This document shows positions 17,407-51,514 of a DNA stretch of 57,129 nt, piece by piece. The notes beneath the pieces were generated by a model, which saw only the letters and a list, made by a program, of their open reading frames with translations, was not told the DNA's origin and searched no databases. Location of the stretch: contig WHTN01000001.1 in the NCBI GenBank assembly GCA_009377715.1, positions 25,092-82,220 on the forward strand, written 5' to 3'. Origin of the DNA: Dehalococcoidia bacterium. Its GTDB lineage: Bacteria; Chloroflexota; Dehalococcoidia; SM23-28-2; WHTN01. The translations under genes and the position numbers were made by a program. Numbering within the stretch: the stretch's first letter is position 1; each line of letters begins with the position of its first letter.

Positions 17407-17488
<82 letters not shown>

Positions 17489-45423: not shown

Positions 45424-46710
45424 CTAACCCGCGCTCCCTATAATTACGCTTGCTGTTCGTTTCTCTTGTCCGCGGTAGTATTCAACATCGATCTGATCGC
45501 CTGAGCGGTATTGCGTTAGGGCCTGAACTAGGTCGCCGCTGTTCCCGATCTCCAAGTCGCCGATCTTAATTATGATATCGCCGGGTTGCAGCCCAGCCCG
45601 CGCTGCTGGCGAGTTTGCAGATACGGTTGTGAGGCCTATGCCGCTGCTGACCGCCAGATTATTTGCTGCGGCAACGCCGGGCGTAATGTTTACTGGGGTC
45701 ACTCCCAGGAAGCCGCGTTCTATCCTACCGCCAGCTAGAAGCTCATCCACTATCGGCTTGGCGTTATCTATAGCGATGGCGAAGCCGATGCCCTCCACGG
45801 TTGCCCCCGGGATACGCGCCGTGTTTATGCCTATGACCTCTCCTCTAACATTGACCAGCGGGCCGCCGCTGTTGCCTGGGTTGATCGCCGTATCGGTCTG
45901 GAGCAGCCCCGTCAGCGTCACCCGCTCGCTCTCCTGGAGGCTGCGGTCTTTGGCACTAACTACGCCTGTGCTTACCGTAGGGCTTCCCTCTAACGCCAGC
46001 GCGTGACCGATGGCTACCACCGTCTCGCCGACGCGCAATTCTGAAGAACTCCCAAGGGCGACGGGCGCTAGGTCTCCGGCCTCGATCTTAATCACCGCCA
46101 GATCGGTTAGCTGATCCGTGCCGATCACGTTCGCGGTGAACGTTTGGTTATCGAAAAGCGTGACGGTTATGCGCTGTCCCATACGTCCGCCATTGAGACG
46201 CAAGACGTGATCGTTAGTGATGATCCGGCCTTCCTCATCGAGGATGAAGCCAGTGCCGACGCCGCTCTGTGGCACCGGTTGCCCGAAGATGTCGGCCGTC
46301 GCCCCCTCCGTCTGCACCTGCACCACGGATGGCCGCAGCTTCTCGACGATGTCCGGTATGCTGAGACTATCGTTATTGTTGTTATTAGATGACGTCTGCG
46401 AACTGGAGGTGGAGTTCGCGTTGCCCGACGAAGAGGCGTCGTTGTCTTCGCCACAGGCGATACTCGTTACAGCGATTACGCTTGCCAGAACTAGCAATAT
46501 TGTCATTGCGAGCGAAGCGAAGCAATCTCTGCCCGTTCCACTACGCTGAAATATGTGGCTGAACTTATGGGTTATTGAGAGATCGCTTCGGTCGCCTACG
46601 CGACACTCACAATGACGTAAGTACCCGTTCACCCTGAGCTTGTCGAAGGGCGCTGTCAGGAACGAAAGCAATAAGTAATACAATCTCCCAGGCCCCTTTC
46701 TTTTTCTCAT
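45424..46710 (-). CDS. htrA: HtrA/DegP-like serine protease with PDZ domain; repeat inserted in signal peptide
   Basis: Start ATG 46710 has GGAAGGGATG upstream. Trypsin triad: His in IITNDHVL, Asp in DLAVIKI, Ser in NPGNSGGPL; PDZ domain from about 330 (GLQPGDIIIKIGDLEI). The N-terminus reads MRKRKGPGRLYYLLLSFL, then about 53 repeat-encoded residues (TAPFDKLRVNG ... FASLAMTI), then LLVLASVIAVTSIACG. Without the insert this is a perfect lipoprotein signal peptide. The insert (about 46497-46655) keeps the frame open. A start inside the insert (ATG 46507) would give only a short leader. The protease would act outside the membrane in protein quality control. Confidence 0.88.
   Translation of the reverse strand: MRKRKGPGRLYYLLLSFLTAPFDKLRVNGYLRHCECRVGDRSDLSITHKFSHIFQRSGTGRDCFASLAMTILLVLASVIAVTSIACGEDNDASSSGNANSTSSSQTSSNNNNNDSLSIPDIVEKLRPSVVQVQTEGATADIFGQPVPQSGVGTGFILDEEGRIITNDHVLRLNGGRMGQRITVTLFDNQTFTANVIGTDQLTDLAVIKIEAGDLAPVALGSSSELRVGETVVAIGHALALEGSPTVSTGVVSAKDRSLQESERVTLTGLLQTDTAINPGNSGGPLVNVRGEVIGINTARIPGATVEGIGFAIAIDNAKPIVDELLAGGRIERGFLGVTPVNITPGVAAANNLAVSSGIGLTTVSANSPAARAGLQPGDIIIKIGDLEIGNSGDLVQALTQYRSGDQIDVEYYRGQEKRTASVIIGSAG
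46502..46653. repeat. Compound palindromic repeat inside the htrA reading frame
   Basis: GTCATTGCGAGCGAAGCGAA ... CACAATGAC (46502-46616) has inverted ends and about the same length as repeats at 31075 and 47663. Directly after it lies CACCCTGAGCTTGTCGAAGG (46631-46650) of a second family. Both are dispersed in this window. Confidence 0.85.
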
Positions 46711-46742
46711 GTCATCCCTTCCTAACCCTACGACCTCCCTCA

Positions 46743-47444
46743 CTACTGCCGATACTGCATAGTCGCTCGCTCGCGCCTACGAAAGACCCATACCATCAGG
46801 AAACCGCTCGCGAAACCGCCGACGTGTGCCCACCAGGCGACGCCTCCTTCGGCGCCAACCGCAACACCGATAGTGGCGGCACCGCTCAGGAGCTGCATTA
46901 AGAACCACAAGCCAATAAGTAACGCCGCCGGTACGGCGACCGTGAAGAAGAGAAGCAAAGGGATAAAGACGCTAACCATAGCTCTCGGATAAAGCACTAG
47001 GTACGCGCCCAAGACGCCCGCAATCGTGCCGCTCGCTCCGACCATTGGCACGCGGCTGTCGCTATCGAAGAAGACCTGCAACGCAGTGCCGCCAAGGCCG
47101 GCCAGTAGATAAAACGCTAAGTAGCGGATATGGCCCATCGTGTCCTCAACGTTGTCGCCGAATACCCACAGGTACAACATATTGCTTATGAGATGCAGCC
47201 AGCCGCCGTGTAGGAACATCGCCGTGAAGGAGGTGACAAGGACTTCTGTCCCTTCACTGGAGGGGTTTTCGACGAAGTTGCTCAGTTCAACCGGGATAGC
47301 GCCCCAATCGAAGAAAAAGACGTTTAGCTCTTGCCCCGACCCGAGGGGGAGCTCGTAAAAGAAGACGATTACGTTCGCTACGATAAGTCCGTAATTGACG
47401 AACGAGAAAGTGCGAGTGCGTACGCTATCGCCGACTGGAATCAA
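46743..47444 (-). CDS. Rhomboid family intramembrane serine protease
   Basis: Start TTG 47444 is chosen for its AGGAGG nine bases upstream; the frame is open upstream to 47492. 233 residues with six membrane helices. Catalytic Ser138 in VGASGTIAG and His in HVGGFASGF; the HLISNMLYLWVFG helix is typical. It cuts membrane proteins within the bilayer. It is next to htrA (33 bases), and the two may form a proteolysis unit. Confidence 0.9.
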   Translation of the reverse strand: MIPVGDSVRTRTFSFVNYGLIVANVIVFFYELPLGSGQELNVFFFDWGAIPVELSNFVENPSSEGTEVLVTSFTAMFLHGGWLHLISNMLYLWVFGDNVEDTMGHIRYLAFYLLAGLGGTALQVFFDSDSRVPMVGASGTIAGVLGAYLVLYPRAMVSVFIPLLLFFTVAVPAALLIGLWFLMQLLSGAATIGVAVGAEGGVAWWAHVGGFASGFLMVWVFRRRERATMQYRQ

Positions 47445-47785
47445 TGGGGATCGCCTCCTGAAATAAATTGTAGCACGGGGTAAGCGGCGCACCTGAGAGT
47501 AGGATTAGGATGTTATGCTATTGCAACGTCGCCTAAAGGTTTAATTCCTGCTAGGTAGAGAGTAGCTGCAGACCTTCAGGTCTGCTTAACTAGGCAGGTC
47601 TTAAGACCTGCAACTACGATGGTCTTCTCCGCTCACCCCGAGCCTGTCGAGGGGTATTGCCCGTCATTGCGAAGCGCCGTGGCGCTCAATCTCCGCCCGT
47701 TCAGTTACATTCGCTTAATTGCACTTTAGCTGTCGTTATCGTTGAGGGATTGCCACGGCCGCTTTTCAGCGGCCTCGCAATGACA
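47445..47785. repeat. Spacer filled with three dispersed repeats
   Basis: No gene. From left to right: palindrome of the GTAGCTGCAGACC type (47562-47618), a CTCACCCCGAGCCTGTCGAG block (47634-47658), and a GTCATTGCGAAGCG ... CCTCGCAATGAC unit (47663-47784) ending two bases before the stop of the adenosyltransferase gene. Confidence 0.75.
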
Positions 47786-51272: not shown

Positions 51273-51318
51273 ACTTTTCTCGTCGAGTCTGCCCATGCCT
51301 TTACCTCGAAGGCTGTCT

Positions 51319-51480
51319 TATCGACGAAGGCAGGCGACCTGACTCCTTCACTTTCTCCGCCGCTCATGCTGAGCTTGTCGAAGTATGAGCGGTTAAGTTG
51401 GTGAAGATACAGTTGCGGGACAGTGCCGGCTTCTCACCGGCTTCGCTCTTAGTCCGCTGTAGCGGACACCTTCGCCGTCG
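51319..51480 (-). ncRNA. Cobalamin riboswitch with repeat-derived extra arm
   Basis: On the minus strand the conserved core is clear: GAAGCCGGTGAGAAGCCGGC, then ACTGTCCCGCAACTGTA (the B12 box region), and GAGTCAGGTCGCCTGCC near the 3' end. P1 can form between CGAAGG at the 5' side and CCTTCG at the 3' side. It controls btuFCD and the adenosyltransferase by a terminator. Between the B12 box and the last helix an arm CCGCTCAT ... ATGAGCGG (51362-51394) contains TTCGACAAGCTCAG, a dispersed repeat of this genome. Confidence 0.93.
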
Positions 51481-51514
51481 CTATTAAATTGTCAGCGTAA
51501 GCCTACCAGTGGAT

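Follow-up and report, generated by a model that had tools for sequence, protein, structure and literature searches.

A compound of two dispersed repeats lying in frame within the predicted lipoprotein signal of an HtrA-like protease of a Dehalococcoidia bacterium

Palindromic repeats that lie in frame within bacterial genes have already been published, and one of them forms part of a signal peptide. The Rickettsia palindromic elements (RPEs) are dispersed palindromes of ~105-150 bp with terminal inverted repeats that are found in frame within conserved protein genes (PMC2229807, PMC10969869), and of the RPEs described first, almost half are located in genes (PMC10969869). The element described here resembles them by description, as it is a dispersed palindrome with terminal inverted repeats situated in frame in a protein gene. 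It differs in that insertion into genes is not recurrent, with one credible case among ~62 copies, and in that the insert combines the palindrome with a second repeat. In Yersinia, the RU-2 repeat in YPO1552 contributes to the predicted signal itself, whereas the present insert lengthens the n-region of a seemingly pre-existing lipoprotein signal. The family is also similar to the intergenic MITE/REP-like bacterial repeats, being short and dispersed, with inverted ends and a strong hairpin, and located mostly between genes.

The window analyzed here is a stretch of 57,129 nucleotides. On its minus strand, a continuous open reading frame at 45424-46743 encodes an HtrA-like serine protease with Trypsin_2 and PDZ domains. 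The GTG at 46743 is the first in-frame start codon, while the ATG at 46710 is the likely start. From this ATG the frame reads MRKRKGPGRLYYLLLSFL, followed by a repeat-derived stretch running from GYLRHCECR to GTGRDCFASLAM, then ILLVLASVIAVTSIACGED, a hydrophobic core, and a lipobox. The likely original start and n-region MRKRKGPGRLYYLLLSFL occupy 46657-46710 (minus strand), with AGGAAGG just before, and the core ILLVLASVIAVTSIA with the lipobox cysteine, recognized by sequence composition, lies at 46453-46500 (minus strand). We consider it probable that a repeat compound was inserted in frame into the signal of an already existing lipoprotein HtrA, that the ATG at 46710 is still used, and that the insert is a tolerated passenger. 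A rhomboid gene at 46743-47492 (minus strand) directly precedes the HtrA frame, and no promoter or terminator pattern was found within 46440-46900. Elsewhere in the window, a cobalamin riboswitch (51312-51488, minus strand) has ABC-transporter and cobalamin genes downstream on the same strand, and the tRNA genes at 910-983 and 17415-17488 have identical scores (63.4 bits) and are possibly duplicates.

The palindromic element within the signal (46502-46616; 115 bp, full length) has the ends GTCATTGCGAG and CTCACAATGAC and a three-way-junction fold. A family profile was built from 25 copies, the HtrA copy among them, which the profile matches at an E-value of 5e-24 (nhmmer). Searching the stretches around repeat matches in the bacterium's own genome with this profile gave ~62 copies, 30 of them full length, with GTCATTGCGAG and CTCGCAATGAC as the family ends. 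The exact 11-mer end occurs 37 + 33 times in the genome vs. 1 + 1 times for the reversed control. As RNA, the element is predicted to form outer and inner stems with a single side hairpin (-48.1 kcal/mol, z -4.6). At gathering scores, it had no match in Rfam, and its repeat sequences were unmatched as such in the literature (none for the 12-mer, and for wider strings the matches listed were unrelated by title). The identity of the repeat and its copy numbers are points in favor of an insertion.

The second dispersed repeat (46625-46651; 27 bp, core CCGTTCACCCTGAGCTTGTCGAAGGGC) lies 8 bp from the palindrome and has more than 40 other matches in the same genome, in agreement with the first-pass annotation, which had described the insert as a compound of two dispersed repeat families. 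A possible extension of this repeat to 46674, seen in one copy (L200), is weak and was rejected. A compound with the same spacing as in htrA, in which the matched 22-mer lies exactly 12 bp away from the palindrome, is present at L185 and L201, and this recurrence at identical spacing also argues for the insertion. An alternative spacing of 8 bp occurs three times, one of these compounds being at 47633-47784, where both families are again joined; it is intergenic, between the rhomboid and cobalamin adenosyltransferase genes. Beside it, at 47558-47621, lies a palindromic-looking stretch of CAGACCTTCAGGTCTG-like units.

The HtrA frame passes through both repeats without a stop. Cuts of 150, 159, or 174 bp each restore an open, compact lipoprotein signal, which further supports the insertion. 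The 159-bp cut had been proposed in the first-pass annotation as an in-frame, stop-free insert whose deletion restores the signal; it is indeed in frame and yields MRKRKGPGRLYYLLLSFLMLVLASVIAVTSIACGED. The 115 bp of the palindrome are not divisible by three, and cutting them out by themselves shifts the frame, so that the in-frame unit is the compound and not the palindrome on its own. Among these cuts, the one that leaves the neatest empty site is the 174-bp cut between two copies of AGCAATA (inner copy 46493-46499, outer copy 46667-46673), which yields MRKRKGPGRLYYLLLVLASVIAVTSIACGED, with MRKRKGPGRLYYLLLVLAS as the predicted empty-site DNA reading. The resulting signal is more compact than that of the 159-bp cut and the nearest to the orthologues in length: the lipobox cysteine is residue 86 at present, 28 after the 174-bp cut, and 19-25 in the order-level orthologues. 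The orthologue signal length is thus another point for the insertion. An in-frame compound does lie at 46497-46655, as first annotated, but the exact borders are not fixed and 46500-46666 is preferred. Because no target duplication was found at other copies, which itself counts against the insertion, the 7-bp direct repeats (chance ~2% for 25-nt flanks) are suggestive only. It is highly improbable that the insert is a reversible switch, in which palindrome-aided slippage between these direct repeats would toggle between a normal and an extended HtrA signal, and just as improbable that such slippage, by removing exactly 58 codons, would alter the amount of HtrA exported.

Each frame in the HtrA orientation is open in only 4-5 of the 30 full-length copies. 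However, the closest other copy (L164:4326-4440, 90% identity over 116 bp) is intergenic and shares the open frame of the HtrA copy. The absence of stops therefore carries less weight, and this counts against the insertion. The two copies differ by nine non-synonymous and three synonymous changes that look neutral; these changes lend no support to purifying selection on the codons of the insert and fit the expectation for a passenger.

The repeats could instead merely separate the rhomboid gene from htrA, the upstream open frame being accidental and the true start being the ATG in the palindrome end (46504-46506, minus strand, in the HtrA frame), which would give MTILLVLASVIAVTSIACGED. In favor of this, almost every other copy lies between genes, and in the one immediately ahead of miaA (L171:2379-2499) the same frame likewise stays open as far as the gene (GRDCFTSFAMTEDMNKRK), which makes start calling there ambiguous. 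In addition, the codon-usage call places the htrA start inside the repeat end, and 46657-46710 has a poor coding score; both count against the insertion, although this segment comprises 18 codons only and the calls come from a simple score of codon usage rather than from a full gene finder. On the other hand, the ATG at 46506-46504, the only one within the repeat, has no ribosome-binding motif ahead of it, and the resulting signal would be devoid of basic residues, unlike those of the orthologues, while a well-formed start and basic stretch are present upstream in the same frame. A start with a ribosome-binding motif and a basic and a hydrophobic stretch was found in 0.4% of upstream-segment shuffles and in 0.17% of random 91-mers from the window, figures that are optimistic, as the criteria were set after viewing the sequence. 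Such an upstream start is thus unlikely to have arisen by chance, which again speaks for the insertion. Overall, a start inside the repeat, raised as a question in the first-pass annotation, is the less likely option, and we regard the purely intergenic placement as possible but rather unlikely.

With the insert in place, the original core remains the most strongly hydrophobic stretch (best 15-residue mean 2.84), a further point for the insertion; it is preceded by ~66 residues with a net charge of +8 and followed by acidic residues. By composition, the features of a lipoprotein signal, i.e., a basic n-region, a hydrophobic core, and a lipobox cysteine, are present whether or not the insert is included. 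Sec and lipoprotein signals can tolerate long positive n-regions, and signal peptidase II removes everything ahead of the lipobox cysteine. In our proposed scenario, the compound of the 27-bp repeat and the 115-bp palindrome would have entered the signal peptide of an existing htrA in frame, translation would still begin at the ATG at 46710, and the extension would form a long, net positive n-region of ~66 residues. The insert would be tolerated because a basic stretch still precedes the core ILLVLASVIAVTSIA and the lipobox, which could thus direct export and lipidation, and because the part before the cysteine is removed. As all residues before the cysteine would be cleaved, the whole insert would be lost with the signal, leaving no trace in the mature protease, which would be unchanged; the insert would be a passenger and not an adaptation.

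The insertion could also have broken export or translation, so that htrA is decaying or the protease is poorly exported, with other HtrA-like proteins compensating. The strong RNA hairpin and the further HtrA-like matches in the genome are compatible with this. Nevertheless, the frame of 439 codons is intact, the catalytic motifs DHV, TDLAVI, and GNSGGP are present, and the codon usage of the mature part is normal. Loss of function is in our opinion distinctly unlikely, and a still functional signal is preferred.

A protease match was found in 97 out of 100 genomes (own included). The best orthologues from other genomes belong to the same order and show 51-54% identity, and a search of a second genome collection gave a sequence from a Chloroflexi MAG as the best orthologue (46% identity). 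Alignment to relatives, suggested in the first-pass annotation, was informative in part: where the start is readable, the lipoprotein signals of the same-order orthologues are compact and show no such extension, but the comparison reaches the order level, with no other member of the same family among the genomes searched, so that an empty site was not seen. That no relative closer than the order showed an empty site counts against the insertion. So does the fact that no rhomboid gene was found beside the htrA orthologues of the relatives examined, which is also in line with an assembly artefact, i.e., a false junction between sequences that share a repeat, the assembly being a draft of 109 contigs in which the repeat is abundant. 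In contrast, the longest exact match to another examined copy is 39 bp, which is short for a misjoin, and the two sides jointly make a proper in-frame signal. An artefact therefore appears very unlikely, and we retain the insertion as the probable origin.

The palindrome family is essentially intergenic and spread across the class. In the own genome nearly all copies are intergenic, a point against the insertion, and the HtrA copy is the only credible displaced N-terminus among the ~62 checked. In the stretches examined from other genomes of the class, two of the 70 complete elements reach the border of a called gene and no element is located within one, which likewise counts against the insertion. 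A stricter element pattern was present in 21 out of 100 genomes (own included), with zero control matches. A partial palindrome at L179:2083-2154 lies ~100 bp upstream of the called start of another HtrA-like gene of the same genome. Like MITEs, the family is short and present in many copies (30 full length) with terminal inverted repeats; target site duplication was not seen, the flank sharing of 27 full-length copies being 2.93 nt vs. 2.96 nt expected. The REP-associated Y1 transposase (PF01797) was not found in the own genome (G000, 93.6% complete), nor in the element-rich genomes G034, G036, G052, and G096, and a link to REP transposases was rejected on the basis of these five genomes.

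The first-pass annotation had likened the insert to the in-frame palindromes of Rickettsia. In-frame insertion is the best reading and would work alike, but it concerns a single copy of an otherwise intergenic family. Since in-frame repeats are known from other bacteria, the HtrA case, although neat, is fairly ordinary; it joins those known from Rickettsia, Wolbachia, and enterobacteria as a candidate from an uncultured lineage. Start-codon calls beside such repeats are unreliable. The case suggests how a repeat may survive inside a gene, namely in the portion of a secreted protein that is lost on cleavage.
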